Assembly (NCBI GenBank): GCA_030725745.1
Contig: JANRFH010000015.1
Coordinates: forward strand, 6,932-70,931
DNA from: Akkermansiaceae bacterium
GTDB taxonomy: Bacteria > Verrucomicrobiota > Verrucomicrobiia > Verrucomicrobiales > Akkermansiaceae
DNA length: 64,000 nucleotides
Direction: 5' to 3'
Shown here: positions 8,747 through 60,636 of the stretch, piece after piece
Layout of the letters: each line of letters opens with the position of its first letter
Position numbering within the stretch: position 1 is the stretch's first letter
Notes under the pieces: model-generated
Told to the model about the DNA's origin: nothing
Database searches by the model: none
Seen by the model: only the letters and a program-made list of their open reading frames with translations
Position numbers and translations under genes: made by a program

Positions 8747-8842
8747 CCTTGCGGCTATGAGGTGTGGTCTTCGACGTTTGATGAAGTTCGCTTAAGCTCA
8801 CAGGTCATTCAATGAAGAGGTCGTTTTAAGCGGGTGCTTGAA

Positions 8843-9346
8843 TTACGCTTTATCTAGGATGGAGTTCCAGTGTTCGAGGTTGTCCTTTTGGGATTCGAAG
8901 AGCTCGGCGGTGTCGTCGTGGATGGTGATGGAGGTGATTGCGTCGCCCTGTTTGATGGCATCAACGACGTTCTGGCCTTTGGTGACTTCGCCGAAGACGG
9001 AGTGCTTGCCATCGAGGTGAGGGGTGGCGTTGTGGGTGATGAAGAACTGCGAGCCGTTGGTTCCGGGGCCGGCATTTGCCATTGAGAAGATGCCTGCTTT
9101 GCCGTGACGAAGTTCGCGCACGAATTCATCGCCGAATTTGTATCCTGGGCCGCCTCGGCCTGTTCCAGTTGGGTCGCCGCCTTGGATCATGAAGTTCGGG
9201 ATCACGCGGTGGAACTTGACGTCATTGTAGTAGCCGCGTTTGGCGAGATTGAGGAAATTGGCGCAAGTGGTAGGAGTTCTGCCTGCGAAGAATGTGGCTT
9301 CGATGTCTCCTTGGGTGGTGTGTACGGTAATATTGATGTCTGACAT
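8843..9346 (-). CDS. cyclophilin-type peptidyl-prolyl cis-trans isomerase
   Basis: This 167-residue single-domain cyclophilin catalyses prolyl isomerisation during folding. The active-site blocks are intact: [19 protein letters not shown] at about residues 45-63 with the catalytic Arg, [18 protein letters not shown], and [12 protein letters not shown]. There is no signal peptide, so it is cytoplasmic (PpiB-like). It lies 15 bases after the EboE-like gene on the same strand and may be its operon partner. The C-terminal 25 residues ([20 protein letters not shown]) extend beyond the usual domain end. Confidence 0.93.
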
Positions 9347-51559: not shown

Positions 51560-51581
51560 CTGCCGAATTCGGCAGCTTTTT
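51560..51581 (+). terminator. palindrome with T-run upstream of the cassette array
   Basis: CTGCCGAATTCGGCAG is a perfect 16-base palindrome followed by CTTTTT. It could terminate transcription entering from the beta-helix gene or serve as an operator. It is not part of a recognisable attC. Confidence 0.5.
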
Positions 51582-51642
51582 ACACGTGAAACACCCAAGG
51601 CATATTGTCATTCGGTGATACCAATAACACTGTTCGACTAAA

Positions 51643-52272
51643 ATGAATCACAACACTTTCTTTATGAAACTAAAACACACAAAAGTGGCCACCCTTGCTG
51701 CCACTCTAATTACATTCGGATCGCTCGCAGGGGGAGCGAATGCGGCGATCAGCTTCACCTCTATGGGGAATGATCTAGTGGTGAACATTACAAGCCCTAT
51801 TAGCTTCAGCGTTACAACGGCCTTGGCGACTGACACCCGGTGGGGCCTTCGACTAGAAAATGTCTTTACTGTTGCACAGTCGACAAACATAGTCCCCGGG
51901 AGCACGACTAGCACAATTGATCTTGCAGGGACAACGTCAACAACCACGCTCAATCAACATGGAGTGTTCACTTTTGGTTCCACAACTGGGCAAGATCTTT
52001 TTGTTTTTTGGAATCCCCCAAGTTACACACCTACGATAAATGACTCAATCAGTATATCATCAGGAACCTTTACACTAAATGGTTTTTTGGATTCAGGCAT
52101 TTCTCCTGATACTGTAGCGACGTCGACAACGGCTTCTATAATACAAGGAGCGAATGGTAAAGCGATTGCTTCAACTAGTGTTGCACTTTTAGCTATTCCT
52201 GAGCCATCGTCAGCTCTTCTTCTAGGGCTTGGGGCATTAAGTTTGCTGGCTCGGCGCAAAAGAACTGCCTAG
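51643..52272 (+). CDS. PEP-CTERM surface protein in integron cassette 1
   Basis: The 209-residue exported protein has a signal peptide (about 10-35, KVATLAATLITFGSLAGGANA), a Ser/Thr-rich beta-type body, and a PEP-CTERM tag: IPEPSSALLLGLGALSLLA then RRKR. It should be sorted by exosortase to the envelope or matrix. The ATG at 51643 lies 4 bases after the cassette core; a second ATG at 51664 would shorten the start by 7 residues and leave the signal intact. Codon use is more AT-rich than in flanking genes. The stop TAG at 52270-52272 directly abuts the attC, typical of a cassette. Confidence 0.85.
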   Translation: MNHNTFFMKLKHTKVATLAATLITFGSLAGGANAAISFTSMGNDLVVNITSPISFSVTTALATDTRWGLRLENVFTVAQSTNIVPGSTTSTIDLAGTTSTTTLNQHGVFTFGSTTGQDLFVFWNPPSYTPTINDSISISSGTFTLNGFLDSGISPDTVATSTTASIIQGANGKAIASTSVALLAIPEPSSALLLGLGALSLLARRKRTA

Positions 52273-52331
52273 GTCGAACAAGCAGGTAGACTCAACGCGC
52301 TACCGCGCGTGAGTCACCTTAAACGTTCGGT
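52273..52331 (+). repeat. attC site 1 (59 bases)
   Basis: It opens GTCGAAC and closes GTTCGGT. The central arms GGTAGACTCAACGCGC (52285-52300) and GCGCGTGAGTCACC (52305-52318) form a 14-bp stem with two unpaired A bases on one side, the hallmark extrahelical bases of attC, and a 4-base loop. Confidence 0.85.
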
Positions 52332-52343
52332 AAAGAAATAAGA

Positions 52344-52844
52344 ATGAAGACCTTCGTTGCCTTAGTTTCCGGCATTACTATTGGGTGTCTCGGGACATTT
52401 CTAATCATGCGCACGCCAATCAATGGTTCGCAACTCGATGGCCGTGCAGACGAGGTTGATGCATCGCCCAAACAGATGGTCGAGGATGCATCTACTGATC
52501 CATTCGCCGACGATCCAACTGATCTAACGGAACATCCTCATGGCTTCACTGAGATGGATATGGCAGATCCGATTCAGCGCGATATTGTTATTTCGCTTTG
52601 GTACACGGATATGTATAGCGTAGTGCAGAACATCGAGCTGCATACAGGCCATAAGTTCAACAAGGAGGTTTACAAGCTTCATGCCAGTCCCATGGAGATC
52701 CTTGAGGAGCAAGCGGAGTTTATGGAGACGTTCCTTAAGGAGACCCGTCGTATTGCCGCTGAACGCAACTCGAATACTGAAACCGAGGACAAAAAGATAC
52801 CGAACAAGGCGGAGATGGCGACTCCGAACCAGCCGTCTGATTAA
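52344..52844 (+). CDS. hypothetical membrane-anchored protein in integron cassette 2
   Basis: I do not recognise this 166-residue protein. An N-terminal membrane helix at about 3-22 (TFVALVSGITIGCLGTFLIM) is followed by a hydrophilic, acidic region and a helical part (DIVISLWYTDMYSVVQNIEL, EILEEQAEFMETFLKETRRIAAE). The last 15 residues (IPNKAEMATPNQPSD) are encoded inside attC 2, so the tail may have been acquired with the cassette. The ATG follows the core GTTCGGT by 12 bases. Its N-terminal anchor resembles that of the cassette 3 protein. Confidence 0.75.
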   Translation: MKTFVALVSGITIGCLGTFLIMRTPINGSQLDGRADEVDASPKQMVEDASTDPFADDPTDLTEHPHGFTEMDMADPIQRDIVISLWYTDMYSVVQNIELHTGHKFNKEVYKLHASPMEILEEQAEFMETFLKETRRIAAERNSNTETEDKKIPNKAEMATPNQPSD

Positions 52845-52886
52845 ATTCGAGCTTCACCCCGGAGCGCCATTCCTATAACGTTAGGC
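52799..52886 (+). repeat. attC site 2 (88 bases)
   Basis: It opens ACCGAAC and closes GTTAGGC. The arms ATGGCGACTCCG (52815-52826) and CGGAGCGCCAT (52860-52870) pair with one unpaired A at 52821. The first 46 bases overlap the end of the cassette 2 gene. Confidence 0.8.
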
Positions 52887-52893
52887 TAGGAAA

Positions 52894-53973
52894 ATGAAGA
52901 CAATTATTAGCCACTTACTCGCGGTTGTCATTGGAGTATTGACAGCGCTTCTGTTGCGCCCTGCCATCGACGACCAGAAGAGCCCATCTGGTGAGACTCA
53001 ACAATCCGAACGAGTAAAGCGCGATAGGGCAGACTCGGCCGCGCCACGCTCAACAGGAACTGTCCCTCGTATCGACGGACAGCAACTTGTAGCGGAACTT
53101 TCGCGTGAGATTACAGCATCTGATCTTGAGAAGTGGCTGGCTGAATGCAGCTACGATGTTCGTTCGCTGGCAGAGGCTCAGGCGATTGCTGGCTTGCTTA
53201 CCAATAATCCGGATTTAGTTCTCCAAGCAATAGAAGCAGATCCTGAAAACCCCCATCTCCTCTACATCGGCGCAACCCTGTCGTCCATTAACGCAAAAGA
53301 GCGTCTGGCACTGAGCGAGCGTTTCTTTCAGCAGGACACCGGGAATGCATTAGCGGGCTACATCTACGCGTCGCAACTGTTCGAGACTGGTGATATCAAG
53401 AAAGGAATCGAGATCATGAAGGGCTCGCAAGACCAGCCTAAGATCGATGCTTACGCCAAACAAACGCAACTGCTAATGGATGACGCATTTATCGCTGCAG
53501 GCGATTCGCCTAGCATGGCCAAAATACGGAGCGTATTGAACTCTACTACTATGCCGTATTTTTCTGATTTGCAGTCTTTGGCCGGTTCAATAAACGATCT
53601 TGGAGATTCCCTGACGCCCGAGGAGGCTGCTGATCTACGCTCCCTGAGCGCCTCGATGGGTTCACGTCTCTCCGATCAAGGAAAATCAAGTACCTATATT
53701 AATCATCTGGTGGGGCTGAGTTTGGAAAAAAAGGCCTTGGCGGGATTGCCAGACAGTTCGCCATCGCCCTACGAAGGACTCACTGTTGGGGAAGCTAGGC
53801 AGTCGATTGCAAACGAGCGCGAGGAACTCTTCCAAGTGATAAATCAAACCCCGATGGAAGCCATTATATCAGGCGACCCGGAGCTCGTAGATCGCTATTT
53901 TGATCGAGTCCGGCTAGTGGGTGAACAGGAGGCCTCAATGTGGTGGCTTGAGGTGACAAGCGGACAGAAATGA
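52894..53973 (+). CDS. hypothetical membrane-anchored helical protein in integron cassette 3
   Basis: This 359-residue protein has an N-terminal anchor at about 4-22 (IISHLLAVVIGVLTALLL), a charged linker, and an all-helical body of about 280 residues with TPR-like repeating helices (LAEAQAIAGLLTNNPDLVLQAIEADPENPHLLY, NALAGYIYASQLFETGDIKKGIEIM). No enzyme motif is seen. The ATG lies 7 bases after the core GTTAGGC, with TAGGAAA as a weak ribosome site. The stop is 17 bases before attC 3. I infer an envelope-facing helical repeat protein; function unknown. Confidence 0.78.
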   Translation: MKTIISHLLAVVIGVLTALLLRPAIDDQKSPSGETQQSERVKRDRADSAAPRSTGTVPRIDGQQLVAELSREITASDLEKWLAECSYDVRSLAEAQAIAGLLTNNPDLVLQAIEADPENPHLLYIGATLSSINAKERLALSERFFQQDTGNALAGYIYASQLFETGDIKKGIEIMKGSQDQPKIDAYAKQTQLLMDDAFIAAGDSPSMAKIRSVLNSTTMPYFSDLQSLAGSINDLGDSLTPEEAADLRSLSASMGSRLSDQGKSSTYINHLVGLSLEKKALAGLPDSSPSPYEGLTVGEARQSIANEREELFQVINQTPMEAIISGDPELVDRYFDRVRLVGEQEASMWWLEVTSGQK

Positions 53974-53990
53974 CTGAAAATACCCGATCA

Positions 53991-54120
53991 GCCTAACAAG
54001 CAGCGCCAGAACAACCCCTACCAGCCGCCCAGTTTCGATGACTTTACTTAGTTACAACATCAATCCCTCGTTCAACGCTCGCTCCCGCTGGTAGGGGTGC
54101 CTGCGCTCTGGACGTTGCTT
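53991..54120 (+). repeat. attC site 3 (about 130 bases)
   Basis: It opens GCCTAAC, the exact complement of its cassette's start. The inner arms ACCCCTACCAGC (54014-54025) and GCTGGTAGGGGT (54087-54098) are perfect. The closing core is GTTGCTT at 54114-54120, which keeps the GTT but is otherwise atypical, so the site may be degenerate or the next cassette was lost. Confidence 0.75.
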
Positions 54121-54188: not shown

Positions 54189-56960
54189 TTATTCCTTAGC
54201 GACCGTCTCCACTGCCTCCACGGGGATCCAGCAGGTTTCGCCGTTGAGGAGGCGGGCTTGGTGGTAGTGGTTGCGGGTTTGGAGGATTTTGAATTCGGTG
54301 CCGGGGTGGAGGGGGGATGAGAAGGCGTTGTCGTAGATGAGGCCGTCGCCTTGGCGGGCGATGACTTCGCGGGCGGTGACGACGGCGTCGACCGGGTTGC
54401 CCCAGCGGAAGATATCGGTGAGGAGGGAGGCGAATAGGATGAGGGTGAGGGCGGCGGTGGCGGCGATGGCTTTGATGAGGGTGATGGATTTCCTTTTTCC
54501 CTTTTTCCCGTTATTTCCTAACAGGATGCGGGCGAGGAGGAGCCAGAGAGCGGCATTGGCGAGGCCGAAGAGGATGGCGCGGAGGAGAAATGGGGAGCGG
54601 TGCCAGAAGGTGAGGGCGTGGACGACTTGTTGGCGGCGGGTGGGGGGTAGCTCGTCGATGGTGAGGGTGCGGAGGTAGCGGAGGTTGTGGGTGGCATCCG
54701 CGTTGAGGGGATCGAGGGCGAGGGCGCGTTGGTAGTGGAGGACGGCGCGGCCGTGGTCGCCGGCGAGGAAGTGGGCGTTGCCGAGATTGAGGTGGAGGGC
54801 TGGGGTTTCGACGCCTTGTTGGTCGATGAGGTATTGGTATTTGAGGATGGAGGCGGCGTAGAGATCGCGGGCGGCGGTGGGGTCGGAGAGGGCGGTGTTG
54901 TTGGCGGCGGTGAAGGTGGCGTTGGCCTCGTCGAATAGGGCTGTGGTAGTGTTGGCTGTGGTTGTGGGGCGAGCTGAAGACTCGCGGTCCGGGGCTGGGG
55001 TTGTGAGGGCTAGGGTTGAGGGGGGGCTCACACGAAGGGACGAAGGCACGAAGGATTTTGGGTTCGTGGCTGGGGTTGATAGGCTCGCAGCAGGGCTGGG
55101 GTTGTTGGGCGACAGGAGTGTCGCCTCTCCTTTGGACGAGGTGGGGAGGAGGGCTAGGGTTAGGGCTAAGATGGTGGAGAGGGATTTTACGGCGGTGATG
55201 GCTTGGGGGCGGAGGTTTGGGGTGGGTTGTTCGGGGGTGTGGTGGAAGCGGGTGGACTCGGTGGTGGTGTAGATTTCGCGAATGGTGGCTAGGGTTTCCT
55301 TTGATGCTCCTTTTGCTGTGAGGGCGAATTCGATTTCCGGGAGGGTGTGGGCGGTGGGGTGGAGGTGGAGTTTTGCGGAGAGGTAGTCGCGCAGGGCGGC
55401 TTCGGTTTCGGCGAGGGTGGAGGCGTGGGAGATGGCTTTAGTGAAGGTTTTTCCGGCGGCGAGGGAGCGGGCTTTGGCTGGGTCTTTGGCACGGAGTCGG
55501 GCGGGTGCCCCGAGGATGAGGTAGGCGAGGAAGGCGATGGGTGGAAGGGCGGCGAGGAGCCAGAGAAGGGGAAGATAGCCGGAGGTGGTGGAGCTGTAGA
55601 GGGCTGCGGGGTCGGTGATGTTTGCGGTGATGCCTTCTTGGTTTTTTGAAACCAGATTGCGGAGGGGGCCGGAGCCGGTGAGGGAGGCATCGAAGGCGGT
55701 GATGGTGTCGGCGGGCTTGACGGTGATGGGGATGGGCTGGGTGGAGGCGAGGGCGTAGGCTTTTGTTTCCGGATCGAAGTAGGGCAGGCGGATGGCGGGG
55801 ATGGCCGAGGCCTCTTGGCCGAGCGGGCGGATGGTGCGTATGTAGGTCTTGGTAGTGCCTTCGATGCGACCGGAGGATTGGCGTGGGGGGATGGAGAACT
55901 GGCGGGTGAAGGCTTCGATGCCGTCTAGCTCGGGGAGTTCGGTGATTTCCGGGAAATCATTTCCTGAGATGGTGATGGTGAGTGTGATCGGGTCTCCGGC
56001 ATGCAGGACGGTGGGGCTGGCGGTGGCGGTGATTGTGCGTTTTCCGACTTGGCCGGTGAAGTCATCGGGCTGGCCGGCGGTGGGCAGGGGGAGGACGACG
56101 AGGCGGTTGCCGCGTGAGGCGGTGTGGAATTTTTCGAAAGCTTCGCCGTCGGTTTCCTCGAAGAAGTTGTTGTTGAAATAGGAGGGATAGGTGGAGCGCC
56201 ATTGGGCGGCGTTGCGGCCTTTTGGCTCCGGTGGGGCGATGTAGGAGGTGAGCAGGGTGGCGGGCGAAAGGGTGTATTCGCCGGGTTTTTCCGGGACAAC
56301 GATCTTGTCGAAGGAGATGGCGGCGGCGGGGACTCCGGCCTCCGTGGCATCCGAGTAGCGGGCGATGAGGCGGGTATTGGAAACGGGGAGGCCGATGGAT
56401 GCGTCGTCGTCCTGAGAGATCGCATCGTGCGGGGCGGTGATGGAGAAGGCGGTGTCGTAGAAGAGGGGGACGTCGAAGTTCAGCGCGCGGAAGCCGGTGA
56501 GGGGGATTTCTGAACGGAATTTCCAAGAGGCGCGGAAGGGCTCGCCGACGTAGAGATCGCGATCCGGCATGGTCTGAGTGAGGGAGAGGGCGGGGTTTGA
56601 TTCTGCCTGGCGGGCGGTGATGTATTCCTCTTCGTTGGTGGAGAGGTAGGTGTCGTCGGCTTTGACGGAAATGATGGGGAGTATGATGAGGCCGTTATCG
56701 AGGGGCATCATGCGGTAGGTGAGGGCGAAGCCTTTTTCGCCGCCGCGTTCGACGGCGGTCTGGCCGGTGAACTGGATGGCGAGGGTGTCGTCGCCTTCGA
56801 TTTCGTCTGCGCTGACTTTTTCCGCTCCGGTGATGAGGATTTCGTATCGGAACTCCTCGCCGACGTAGAAGGTGGACTCCGAGATGTCGACGTGCAGGGA
56901 GGGCGCGGCGAGGGATGGAAGAGTTAGGATCAGGAACAGGATGTAGCGGAGGTGGGGCAT
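54189..56960 (-). CDS. BatD-BatE fusion protein
   Basis: This 923-residue exported protein has a signal peptide (about 1-18). Its BatD half (about 19-480) has oxygen-tolerance beta domains (LHVDISESTFYVGEEFRYEI, ASPTVLHAGDPITLTITISGNDF). A membrane helix follows at about 462-486, then a cytoplasmic region, a TPR region (LYAASILKYQYLIDQQG, LHLNLGNAHFLAGDHGRAVLHYQRAL), further helices, and a C-terminal SH3-like domain (VDAVVTAREVIARQGDG to GETCWIPVEAVETV). The last part matches BatE. The linker at about residues 630-667 (NPKSFVPSSLRVSPPSTL, then APDRESSARP) is encoded by two dispersed repeats also found outside genes. It is the last gene of the bat operon. Confidence 0.88.
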   Translation of the reverse strand: MPHLRYILFLILTLPSLAAPSLHVDISESTFYVGEEFRYEILITGAEKVSADEIEGDDTLAIQFTGQTAVERGGEKGFALTYRMMPLDNGLIILPIISVKADDTYLSTNEEEYITARQAESNPALSLTQTMPDRDLYVGEPFRASWKFRSEIPLTGFRALNFDVPLFYDTAFSITAPHDAISQDDDASIGLPVSNTRLIARYSDATEAGVPAAAISFDKIVVPEKPGEYTLSPATLLTSYIAPPEPKGRNAAQWRSTYPSYFNNNFFEETDGEAFEKFHTASRGNRLVVLPLPTAGQPDDFTGQVGKRTITATASPTVLHAGDPITLTITISGNDFPEITELPELDGIEAFTRQFSIPPRQSSGRIEGTTKTYIRTIRPLGQEASAIPAIRLPYFDPETKAYALASTQPIPITVKPADTITAFDASLTGSGPLRNLVSKNQEGITANITDPAALYSSTTSGYLPLLWLLAALPPIAFLAYLILGAPARLRAKDPAKARSLAAGKTFTKAISHASTLAETEAALRDYLSAKLHLHPTAHTLPEIEFALTAKGASKETLATIREIYTTTESTRFHHTPEQPTPNLRPQAITAVKSLSTILALTLALLPTSSKGEATLLSPNNPSPAASLSTPATNPKSFVPSSLRVSPPSTLALTTPAPDRESSARPTTTANTTTALFDEANATFTAANNTALSDPTAARDLYAASILKYQYLIDQQGVETPALHLNLGNAHFLAGDHGRAVLHYQRALALDPLNADATHNLRYLRTLTIDELPPTRRQQVVHALTFWHRSPFLLRAILFGLANAALWLLLARILLGNNGKKGKRKSITLIKAIAATAALTLILFASLLTDIFRWGNPVDAVVTAREVIARQGDGLIYDNAFSSPLHPGTEFKILQTRNHYHQARLLNGETCWIPVEAVETVAKE
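54966..55062. repeat. dispersed repeats R1 and R2 inside the batD-batE gene
   Basis: R1 (GGGCGAGCTGAAGACTCGCG, about 54966-54993) and R2 (CACGAAGGGACGAAGGCACG, about 55028-55062) also occur in non-coding sequence at 57151, 59549, 61635 (R1) and 61551, 61672 (R2). Here they are read in frame. Confidence 0.75.
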
Positions 56961-57316
56961 TTCGTTGAGTGGAAAGTGATCAGTGGACAGTGATCAGTGG
57001 GAGACTGGGGTTGGGTGGAAGAGGTTGAACCGCGAAGACGCTAAGGCGCGAAGGCTGGGGTTGTGTTTTTTTTTTGAATGAGGAAGGCAGGAAAGTAGGA
57101 AGGATACGGGGCTCTGGCTTTTGGCTTCTGGCTTCTGGGCTGGGGTTGATGGGGCGAGCTGAAGACTCGCGGTCCGTTTGCTGGGGTTGGGTGGGAAGAA
57201 GTTGAACCGCTAAGACGCTAAGGCGCGAAGACTGGGGTTGTTGGAATTGGTAATTTTATATTCTGAAAAACTTAGCGGCTTTGCGTCTTTGCGGTGAAAT
57301 CTTTGTGTGGTTGGGG
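56961..57316. repeat. repeat mosaic in a 356-base gap of the bat operon
   Basis: No gene is present. In order there are GTGATCAGTGGACAGTGATC (56972), an AACCGCGAAGACGCTAAGGC unit (57024), the GAATGAGGAAGGCAGGAAAG unit (57076), a TGGCTTCTGGCTTCTGG run, R1 (57151), a second AACCGCTAAGACGCTAAGGC unit (57205) and its inverse (57271-57295). Short TGGGGTTG connectors separate them. The mosaic interrupts an otherwise compact operon. Confidence 0.75.
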
Positions 57317-59479
57317 TTACCAGTCTTTTTCTACGGGTTCGGCTTTTTTGGCTGAGCCGCCTTGGCGGGCTTGCTGGAGGGCTTGGTTGCGGTTGATGAC
57401 GTCTTCGGGGGAGTCGCCGGGAGGGGGGATGTCGAAGGCATCGAGGTCGGTGCGGGAATCGCCTTCGGAGGGCTCGTCGCTCATTTCGCCGTCTTCGCCT
57501 TCGGTGGACTCGCCGTCTTCTCCTTCTTCGCCGGATTCGGAATCGGCGTCGGAGGGGTCGCCTTCTTCGCCTTCGTCTCCCTCTTCGCCTTCGGCGGCTT
57601 CTTCGGGGTCTTTTGGCAGTGCGTCGAGGGCGGCGCGGAGGGCGTTGAGGGCGAGTTGTTCTTTTTCGCGGCCTGGGGTGGGCTGGAGGGGGAGGAGGCC
57701 TGTGGCTGCGGTTTCTTCGGTGACGGCGGTCTCGAGTTGGGTGAGGGTTTCGGCGAGGGGGCTGACTTCGCCGGGGAGGTCGCCGAAGAATTTTTCCTGG
57801 GTCTCCATGGCGAACTTGCGGGTGGAGGTGGTGTCGGTGGTGATGGTTCGCTCGGTCTCGGTGAGGGTGGTGGTGGTTGGTGTGGGATCTACTGTGGGTT
57901 CCGTAGGTGTTGGGTCGGACTTGAGGTAGGTGTCGGTGTTGATGAGGTTGGTGGATTGGGCGACGATGAGTGCCTTGATCTGGGTGGTGATCTTGTCGAG
58001 GGCGAGTTGCAGTTCGGCGCGGCGTTTCTCGTCCTCGGCGATGAGTTTGCGGAGGGCGGCGCGCTCAATGCGGGCTAGCTCGGTATTGATGGCGGCGGGT
58101 TTGTCGGTGGGATCTGTTAGGAGGATTTTTCGGTAGAGGGAGAGGGCGCGGTCGGTGAGGGAGAGGGCGGCATACATGTCGTCCGAGGCGTCGGCCTGGC
58201 GGAGGAGGGTGTTGGCGAGATTGAAGGTGAGGTGGCGGATGAGGGGGGAGCCGGGTGAGAGGGAGAGGGCTTGGTCGTAGGTGGCGGCGGCTTCCTCGAA
58301 GCGGGTGAGGCGGAACTCGGTGTTGCCCTTGAGGAAGAGGAGTTCCGGGTAGGGGGTTTTCTCGGCGAGGGTGGTGAGGATTTTGTCGGCGGCTTCGTAT
58401 TTGGCGTTTTCGAAAAGGGACTCGGCTTCTTCGTAGGTTTCGGCTTTGAGGTTCTGGGCGAAAAACGGGAAGAGTAGTAGCAGGGCGAGGGCGGGTTTGA
58501 TGCGGGCACGGGGGACGACGGCCATGAGGGTGAGTGCGATGAGGGCGATGGCGATGAAGAGCTGGAATATGCCGTCGTAGGTGATGGCGCTGGTGCCGGC
58601 GAGTTCGCGTTTGCCTTCTTGGGCGCTGAGGCGTTCGTAGATGTCTCCGAGTTTCATGCGACGGCTGGCGACCGGGAGGAAGGCGGCTTTTTCCACGGAG
58701 TTCGTGAGGGCGGTGAGTTGGGCGGTGTCGAGTTTTGACCAGATTTCCTCGTTGTTGTAGGTGACGTAATCGGAGGCGCCGGATGGATCAGGGATGCGGG
58801 AGCCGGTGCGTTCGTCGCCGAGGCCGATGGCGATGAGTTTAACTTTCTTTTCGTTGAGGACGTTGATGGCTTTTTCGAGGCTTTCGGATTGGTCGCCGCC
58901 GTCGGTGATGAGGACGATGTCGCGGAAGCCTTGTTCCTCGCCGGAGAAGAGTTTGTCGCAGGTTTTGAGGAGGGCGTCGCCGATGCGGGTGCCGCCATGG
59001 GAGACGCTTTCGGGGCCGGTGAGGGCGAGGGCGTCGAGGAAGAAGCCGGTGTCGGAGGTGAGTGGGCAGACGATGGAGGAGGAGCCGCCGAAGACCACCA
59101 GGCCGACGCGGTGGTTTTCAAGGTCTGCAACGCATTCGGCGATGGAGGCTTTGGCGGAGCCGAGGCGGTTTGGCAGGAGGTCTTCGGCGAGCATGGAGCG
59201 TGAGACATCGAGGACGAAGACGATGTCGCGGCCTTCCTGGGCGAAGGTTTTCGGGTGGGGATTGATGGCGGGACGAGCGAGGGCGAAGATGATGGCGGCG
59301 GCGGTGAGGAGCATCATGGCGAGGCGACCGTGGCCGGAGGATGGGCGGGTGGCGGCGGCTCCGAAGGCGGCGGTGTCCGTGCGGCGTTTTGCGACGCGGA
59401 GGCGGTGGAGGAACGCGAAGAGACCTAGCAGCGGGAGCAGCCAGAGGAGTTCGGGTTTCTGTAGGACGAAGGGAGGCAT
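57317..59479 (-). CDS. BatB-BatC fusion: VWA membrane protein with TPR and acidic tail
   Basis: The 720-residue protein has two N-terminal helices, a VWA domain with intact MIDAS (FVLDVSRSM, then the GGTRIGDAL threonine and LITDGGDQSES), and a helix at about 308-330. A second hydrophobic stretch follows, then TPR repeats (YEEAESLFENAKYEAADKIL, FLKGNTEFRLTRFEEAAATY). The tail (about 630-700) is highly acidic (EGEEGDEGEEGDPSDADSES). The first half is BatB and the TPR part BatC. The VWA domain faces the periplasm and binds a partner through a metal. Confidence 0.88.
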   Translation of the reverse strand: MPPFVLQKPELLWLLPLLGLFAFLHRLRVAKRRTDTAAFGAAATRPSSGHGRLAMMLLTAAAIIFALARPAINPHPKTFAQEGRDIVFVLDVSRSMLAEDLLPNRLGSAKASIAECVADLENHRVGLVVFGGSSSIVCPLTSDTGFFLDALALTGPESVSHGGTRIGDALLKTCDKLFSGEEQGFRDIVLITDGGDQSESLEKAINVLNEKKVKLIAIGLGDERTGSRIPDPSGASDYVTYNNEEIWSKLDTAQLTALTNSVEKAAFLPVASRRMKLGDIYERLSAQEGKRELAGTSAITYDGIFQLFIAIALIALTLMAVVPRARIKPALALLLLFPFFAQNLKAETYEEAESLFENAKYEAADKILTTLAEKTPYPELLFLKGNTEFRLTRFEEAAATYDQALSLSPGSPLIRHLTFNLANTLLRQADASDDMYAALSLTDRALSLYRKILLTDPTDKPAAINTELARIERAALRKLIAEDEKRRAELQLALDKITTQIKALIVAQSTNLINTDTYLKSDPTPTEPTVDPTPTTTTLTETERTITTDTTSTRKFAMETQEKFFGDLPGEVSPLAETLTQLETAVTEETAATGLLPLQPTPGREKEQLALNALRAALDALPKDPEEAAEGEEGDEGEEGDPSDADSESGEEGEDGESTEGEDGEMSDEPSEGDSRTDLDAFDIPPPGDSPEDVINRNQALQQARQGGSAKKAEPVEKDW

Positions 59480-59607
59480 TTCTTTTAGTGGCTAGTGCCG
59501 AGTGATCAGTGATCAGTGGGAAGACTTGGGTTGGGTGGCTGGGGTTGTGGGGCGAGCTGAAGACTCGCGGTCCGTTTGCTGGGGTTGTGTTTTGAAAGTT
59601 GAGAGTT
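59480..59607. repeat. repeat cluster between batA and batB/C
   Basis: TAGTGCCGAGTGATCAGTGA at 59493 and R1 (GGCGAGCTGAAGACTCGCGG at 59551) are joined by TGGGGTTG connectors. It is non-coding. Confidence 0.65.
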
Positions 59608-60636
59608 CTATGGGGAGATGCGGAGGAGGGTGGCGGTTAGGAGGGAGCGGAGGGCTAGGAGGGCTAGGGAGGTTAGGGCGAAGGGGGTGAAGGCGTCGGT
59701 GCGTTCTTGGAAGCCGACTTCGCGGATTTTAGTTTTTTCGAGGGAGTTGATTTCGGCGTAGACGGATTGGAGGGAGTCGAGGTCGTGGGCGGTGCGGAAG
59801 ATGCCGCCGGTGGAGGTGGCCATTTTTTCTAACACCTGATCGGAGGCGGTGGATGGTTCGGGGCGGAGGAAGTTTCCTTCGGCTGTTTCGACGAGGTTGG
59901 GGGCTTGCTGTTCCTGGAGGCTGATGGTGTAAATGCGGATGCCCCATTCTTTGGCCATGGCGGCGGCTTGGAGGGGCATGGTTTCGCCGCAGTTGTTTTC
60001 GCCATCGGTGAGGAGGAGGATGACTTTGCTTTCCGGGGTGCCGGGGCGGTCTTCGCTGGCTTTGAGTTCGGCGGCGGCGAGGGCTGCTGCGTCTCCGTAG
60101 GCGGTGCCGTCTTCGTTGGGGCGGGTGTTGATGGTGATTTCCCGGATCATGTAGGTGAGCGCATCGTGGCCGAGGGTCATCGGGCAGATGCGATCCGAGT
60201 AGCGGGCGAAGGAGATGACGCCGATCATGTCGTCGGGGCGGCCGGTGAGTTCTTCGCCATCGCCAGAGACGAATTGCTCCAATACTTTCTTGGCGACTTC
60301 CATGCGTGTCATGGGGCCGTCTTCCATTTTGATATCCATGTCCATGCTGCTGGAGACATCGACGAGTAGCTGGATGGCGATGCCCTCGCGGTCTTCGCGG
60401 GTGCCGGTGGAATCGACCTGGGGTCGTGCGAGGCAGAGGATGAGCGCGGCGAGGGAGAAGTGGAGGAGGAGGCTTGGGAGGAAGAGGAGGTGCTGGCGCC
60501 AGGTCTTTGGAGCGCCTTCGAAGGAGGCGAAGGACGGGTAGGGGATGGCGGCGCTGCGGCGGATTTTGCGCTGCCAGAGGGCGATGAAGGGGAGCGCGGC
60601 TAGGAGGAAAAGGAAATGGGGGGCGGTGAAGGTCAT
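59608..60636 (-). CDS. batA: BatA: VWA-domain membrane protein
   Basis: The 342-residue protein has an N-terminal BatA motif (FTAPHFLFLLAALPFIALW), a second helix at about 55-75, and a VWA domain with MIDAS QLLVDVSSSMDMD, the DGTAYGDAA threonine and LLLTDGENNCG. A C-terminal anchor (FTPFALTSLALLALRSLL) follows. It probably pairs with BatB as a metal-dependent adhesion complex in envelope stress or oxygen tolerance. The start overlaps the stop of the upstream lipoprotein gene by 4 bases. Confidence 0.92.
   Translation of the reverse strand: MTFTAPHFLFLLAALPFIALWQRKIRRSAAIPYPSFASFEGAPKTWRQHLLFLPSLLLHFSLAALILCLARPQVDSTGTREDREGIAIQLLVDVSSSMDMDIKMEDGPMTRMEVAKKVLEQFVSGDGEELTGRPDDMIGVISFARYSDRICPMTLGHDALTYMIREITINTRPNEDGTAYGDAAALAAAELKASEDRPGTPESKVILLLTDGENNCGETMPLQAAAMAKEWGIRIYTISLQEQQAPNLVETAEGNFLRPEPSTASDQVLEKMATSTGGIFRTAHDLDSLQSVYAEINSLEKTKIREVGFQERTDAFTPFALTSLALLALRSLLTATLLRISP

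Follow-up and report, generated by a model that had tools for sequence, protein, structure and literature searches.

Three integron gene cassettes behind an attI-like site in a chromosome of the Akkermansiaceae, one with a PEP-CTERM cargo

Clusters of attC sites that lack an integron integrase are known as CALINs, following the definition of Cury et al. (PMC8618304, PMC9024848). Off-target insertion, loss of intI and rearrangement are among the origins listed for them, and integrons are already on record for Verrucomicrobiota (PMC8618304). Beyond class 1 integrons, attI sites are poorly described (PMC9024848), and secreted proteins are a common cassette cargo (PMC9668308).

Here, we analysed a stretch of 64,000 nucleotides (G000:C15:6932-70931; the window), which lies on a contig of 107.9 kb from a draft genome of 3.42 Mb (57 contigs, 95% complete). 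The nearest relatives of its trpA gene are found in Akkermansiaceae and Verrucomicrobiales MAGs (84-88% identity). The family of the host also includes Akkermansia. A reading of the sequence alone had proposed an integron cassette array in a verrucomicrobial chromosome, and the Verrucomicrobiales host, the matches to an attC model and DNA homology all agree with this proposal. Positions 51633-54114 are three integron gene cassettes. We conclude that the locus is almost certainly a short chromosomal integron cassette array, made up of an attI and three cassettes with no adjoining integrase gene, that is, an attI-headed CALIN. The GC content of the array is 46-52%, compared with 55-65% in its flanks.

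The cassettes and their attC sites

All three cassettes lie on the forward strand and run from core to core. The array opens with the core GTTCGAC, in which cleavage is expected between the G and TT. Cassette 1 (51633-52325) contains ORF1 (209 aa; 51643-52272) and the 59-nt attC1 (52273-52331), with R'' GTCGAAC and R' GTTCGGT. It is followed by cassette 2 (52326-52880), with ORF2 (166 aa; 52344-52844) and the 88-nt attC2 (52799-52886; R'' ACCGAAC, R' GTTAGGC), and by cassette 3 (52881-54114), with ORF3 (359 aa; 52894-53973) and the 130-nt attC3 (53991-54120), where R'' GCCTAAC and a degenerate terminal R', GTTGCTT, enclose a hairpin. The core at the start of each cassette is the exact reverse complement of R'' in that cassette's own attC: GTTCGAC (51632-51638) matches GTCGAAC (52273-52279), GTTCGGT (52325-52331) matches ACCGAAC (52799-52805) and GTTAGGC (52880-52886) matches GCCTAAC (53991-53997). 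The three tandem ORFs and their core pairs were thus all found where the sequence-only reading had placed them, with three of three self-matches exact. That reading had also described unpaired A bases in the arms of attC1 and attC2; attC1 does have two extrahelical A bases, whereas those of attC2 are a G and an A.

GTTAGGC fits the core consensus GTTRRRY, and GTTCGAC, GTTCGGT and GTTGCTT each depart from it at one R position. With the core of this lineage written as GTTNNNY, the sites have the expected RYYYAAC...GTTRRRY pair around a foldable imperfect inverted repeat; C is the commonest base at position 4 in the attC sites of relatives too. A strict RYYYAAC/GTTRRRY filter combined with an energy filter returned no sites at intI loci, because the cores of this lineage carry C at position 4, and was then relaxed.

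A blind scan for R'', R' and a hairpin over both strands of the 108-kb contig returned attC1 and attC2 only, and a looser scan added attC3, among chance matches. We then fetched the integrase neighbourhoods of 13 TIGR02249-positive genomes and chose 30 hairpin sites from them for a covariance model, R1, which has explicit pairs, omits the variable loop and includes zero window sequence. Paired changes in the 30 sites give a covariation score of 0.557, against 0.154 when shuffled and at most 0.129 in slid registers; the score is inflated because the sites were picked for foldability, but no slid register approaches it. R1 has only two significant matches on the 108-kb contig, attC1 (43.4 bits, E 9e-9) and attC2 (42.2 bits, E 2e-8). 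It misses attC3, in which the stem is one base longer on each side and the last core is GTTGCTT.

All three sites have counterparts at DNA level. attC1 is 87.5% identical over 56 nt to an attC in an intI-bearing array of the family member G124, and attC2 is 88% identical over 83 nt to attC sites in a superintegron of the congener G193. For attC3 the counterparts are an intI-adjoining attC of the relative G141 (80% identity over 113 nt) and an attC of the host genome itself, on contig C12 (82%). Judged by this homology, attC3 is an attC despite the R1 miss. With two strong model matches and a third site assigned by homology, the array reading stands.

The self-match between cores is independent of the model, since R1 ignores the neighbouring core. 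We evaluated it in the complete genome of G193, where 112 attC matches, all on one strand, stretch over ~63 kb next to intI (2252573-2253529; superintegron span G193:C1:2188861-2251581; L087-L090). There, R'' exactly matches the core at the start of its own cassette in 96 of 110 cassettes, as opposed to 2 of 111 for the R' of the same site and 8.8% for a random core. The self-match is thus a cassette signature, as had been proposed. Because exact seven-base matches occur in 8.8% of pairs drawn from a real integron core pool, three of three by chance has a probability of about 7e-4, and far less against unrestricted sequence, in line with the earlier judgement that three perfect matches are very unlikely by chance.

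The search for attC sites was extended to the whole genome, and at least five further cassette loci were identified, four of them with attI-like heads. Three cassettes lie near 55.4 kb on contig C3, the first with the pair GTTAGCT/AGCTAAC and the other two with mutated start cores and a recognisable R''. The second locus on C3, near 144.9 kb, has the pairs GTTCGCT/AGCGAAC and GTTCGCC/GGCGAAC. The end of C12 carries GTTCGCC/GGCGAAC, GTTATCC/GGATAAC and one further cassette, and the start of C25 carries a toxin-antitoxin-like cassette (GTTGAGC/GCTCAAC) plus one more. The fifth locus is attI-headed at a contig end, where C55 stops within the attI core. The R1 matches on C12, C25 and C3 near 55 kb are a lower bound, because 150 of 1374 candidates were scored.

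Several further features of cassette arrays deserve mention. The C25 cassette (L069 about 70-715) encodes a RelE/HigB-like and XRE/HigA-like toxin-antitoxin pair, and a RelB/RelE-like pair lies at the end of the array near 54 kb on C3 (L070 about 8760-9270, reverse strand); both were assigned by eye. In several arrays the last attC is cut down to R'' plus AA(G) and then gives way to unrelated flank (GCCTAACAA, GGCGAACAAG, GCCGAACAAG and GGCGAACAA). These shortened sites are located at L070 8720-8740 (reverse strand), L187 about C3:143.8k (reverse strand), L069 1163-1175 and L048 about 4280, and the break point just after R'' recurs among them. The attI-like sites at C3:144878-144891 and at the end of C55 (L187, L188) are 89.5% identical over 286 bp on their upstream side and diverge beyond it, a pattern that would fit an intrachromosomal duplication of the attI together with this 286-bp leader.

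The head of the array and the integrase

The left boundary of the array reads GCATATTGTCATTCGGTGATACCAATAACACTG|TTCGAC. The attI-like site, GCATATTGTCATTCGGTGATACCAATAACACTG|TT, spans 51600-51634 on the forward strand, and its last part (51623-51634) ends AATAACACTG|TT, the motif that adjoins intI in relatives. Nine integrons in which this motif, AATA-N(0-4)-ACTGTT, was found were tested (three in G124 and one each in G135, G141, G155, G167, G175 and G193), and in all nine it lies beside a divergent intI, detected within 1.5 kb. An upstream ATAT.../GGTG element is also common to the window boundary and the intI-adjoining sites of relatives. The host genome contains seven copies of the motif followed by MK (as GTTCG or GTTAG), four of which head arrays, and a reversed-pattern control gives two. 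Going by these similarities, an attI site is present at the array head; the sequence-only reading had reported none in the window, and on this point it is corrected. Upstream of the site (51560-51575, forward strand) is a terminator-like palindrome, CTGCCGAATTCGGCAG followed by CTTTTT, found by a pattern scan whose matches are not above shuffled expectation. A promoter scan gave a result only slightly above the shuffled mean.

No integron integrase (TIGR02249 above cut-off) was found in the window, as had been noted before, or in the draft assembly (95% complete). The sole two recombinase matches in the assembly are Xer-like proteins of 307 and 301 aa, which score below the TIGR02249 cut-off and have no match to profile positions about 180-235, and tblastn with integrases found no integrase remnant near the arrays of this genome. 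Of 190 genomes sampled from the order, 69 have a TIGR02249 match that clears the curated cut-off, with the congeners G095 and G175 among them. In a set of 73 congeners the figure is 39, rising to 46 at E <= 1e-45. The attI head, together with the lack of an integron integrase in the assembly even though 46 of 73 congeners have one, leads us to describe the locus as an attI-headed CALIN. It has three attC sites and no intI on the 108-kb contig; of the parts of a complete integron it has an attI, recognised by similarity, and lacks a TIGR02249 match above cut-off. The integrase may have been lost, but the draft has gaps.

These gaps bear on the best-surviving alternative, in which the cell has a single integrase that is missing from the assembly and acts in trans on several attI platforms, this array among them. 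We give it somewhat less than an even chance. The draft is in 57 contigs and 95% complete, and C12 stops 57 bp upstream of an array-heading attI, so that an intI could lie there. C55 breaks off within an attI core, and the first bases of C25 are already part of an attC; the positions of these three contig ends indicate that integron DNA breaks the assembly. However, at least four attI-like heads (in the window, at C3:55k, at C3:145k and on C55) are preceded by at least 1.5 kb of sequence without intI, and the attI sites examined in relatives each have their own intI.

An off-target origin, in which a trans-acting integrase used a chromosomal GTT as a secondary site and neither attI nor intI was ever local, appears improbable. 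The genome does hold several dispersed arrays without a local intI, and off-target insertion is among the listed origins of CALINs (PMC8618304), but the boundary carries both the attI motif and the ATAT.../GGTG element of intI-adjoining sites, which are unexpected at a secondary site. The attI head thus favours loss of intI or service in trans over simple off-target insertion.

We also compared the flanks and ORFs with those of relatives. Relatives of ORF3 (24-29% identity) occur in 3 of 38 related genomes (G161, G206 and G016), with no attC beside them. Neither the trpA nor the BatD-like neighbourhoods of relatives keep the gene order of the window, so the three ORFs are not syntenic in the way that ordinary conserved genes would be, and the array reading holds here too. 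The protein in the left flank has relatives in five other congeners (44-65% identity), and in G193 and G242 no further window gene lies near it. No empty site (the attI, AATAACACTGTT, followed by the right flank) was found in a close strain; none could be demonstrated, since the BatD-like gene has one 30% match among relatives and no neighbour is kept around trpA. An aerotolerance-like BatD/VWA-TPR/BatA operon (54189-60636, reverse strand), with strong GC skew (up to 0.55), lies on the right side of the array. The notion that these are ordinary genes, with core matches by coincidence and with intrinsic terminators or chance palindromes between them, draws on the commonness of intergenic hairpins and the R1 miss of attC3, and we reject it as wholly implausible on covariance-model and homology evidence, given E-values of 1e-8, DNA homology to intI-linked attC sites and exact self-matches in the other arrays of the genome.

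For the attI-headed CALIN, established integron biology suggests how the array may have formed. With the bottom strand of every attC folded, an integron integrase would have cut out or taken up circular cassettes and joined them to the window attI at its G|TT. This integrase would either have been encoded at the locus and later deleted, or act or have acted in trans, unseen in the draft. The cassettes may now be fixed or slowly changing genes.

PEP-CTERM cargo in the window and in relatives

ORF1 combines a signal peptide, judged by eye, with a PEP-CTERM sorting tail (PF07589, 25.2 bits, cut-off 20.7; TIGR02595, 23.3 bits, cut-off 16), and the passenger between them has no known domain. The host genome encodes an exosortase (PF09721, 156.6 bits; C3:22592-23377). 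The tail, the signal peptide and the exosortase gene together mark ORF1 as a predicted exosortase substrate, in agreement with the cargo proposed from the sequence alone. The product of this cassette, the nearest to attI, would thus be exported through the signal peptide, and the exosortase of the host would process it. The other two ORFs had been described as N-anchored proteins of unknown type, and both appear so: ORF2 has an N-terminal hydrophobic segment and ORF3 an N-terminal hydrophobic helix, with no family above cut-off for either. The last ~15 aa of ORF2 are encoded by attC2 and match the attC-encoded tails of many G193 cassettes. The AlphaFold models have low confidence, with pLDDT 35.5 for ORF1 and 52.6 for ORF3, too poor a basis for fold searches; in its model, ORF3 probably continues after the N-terminal helix as an all-helical repeat-like domain.

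PEP-CTERM cassettes like that of ORF1 recur in four related species. G198 (C54, L199) has two consecutive ones, alike in signal-peptide type and unlike in passenger, the second with the exact self-match GTTCTGC/GCAGAAC. An intI-bearing array of G155 includes another (self-match GTTCGAC/GTCGAAC), G167 has one that is recognised by its tail, with PF07589 below cut-off, and in G193 a PEP-CTERM gene lies directly 5' of an attC. Cassette 1 of the window and the first G198 cassette are ~81% identical over the 5' 95 nt and ~75% identical over the 3' 134 nt, attC included, whereas their middles (~440 nt) are unrelated, aligning with a score of 18 against a shuffled mean of 18.6. Among the sequence sampled, the signal-peptide type ITFGSLAG occurs in cassettes only.

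We tentatively suggest, as a reading less likely than not, that a class of surface-protein cassettes in the integrons of this family keeps its ends constant (an export signal, a PEP-CTERM tail and, in two cases, the attC) around an exchangeable passenger. Swapped passengers displayed by the exosortase might then diversify the cell surface, fed to several dispersed attI-headed platforms of one chromosome. In the literature searched we found no joint mention of integrons with PEP-CTERM and gene cassettes, or of integrons with exosortases.

Comparison with known systems

From the locus and its relatives come a candidate consensus for the attI of one lineage, a superintegron in which attC sites number over 100, and a genome where several arrays have an attI head; together these make the question of CALIN origin testable. 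The recurring cargo with predicted exosortase sorting would tie gene capture to cell-surface variation. Most worthy of specialist attention are the PEP-CTERM cassettes with variable passengers and the multiple attI heads.

Like a CALIN, the window array has at least two tandem attC sites and no integrase nearby; unlike one, it has a recognisable attI-like head, and the genome holds several such arrays. It resembles the G193 superintegron, a sedentary chromosomal integron from the same genus, in its attC2 subfamily (88% identity), core style, self-match and an attI ending in ACTGTT, but G193 has an intI and more than 100 cassettes, whereas the window has three cassettes of mixed attC subtypes and no intI. 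ORF1 shares its signal peptide, its tail and an exosortase in the genome with known PEP-CTERM/exosortase proteins (PF07589, TIGR02595, PF09721). It differs from them in that its gene is an integron cassette, and the PEP-CTERM cargo of cassette 1 is unusual.
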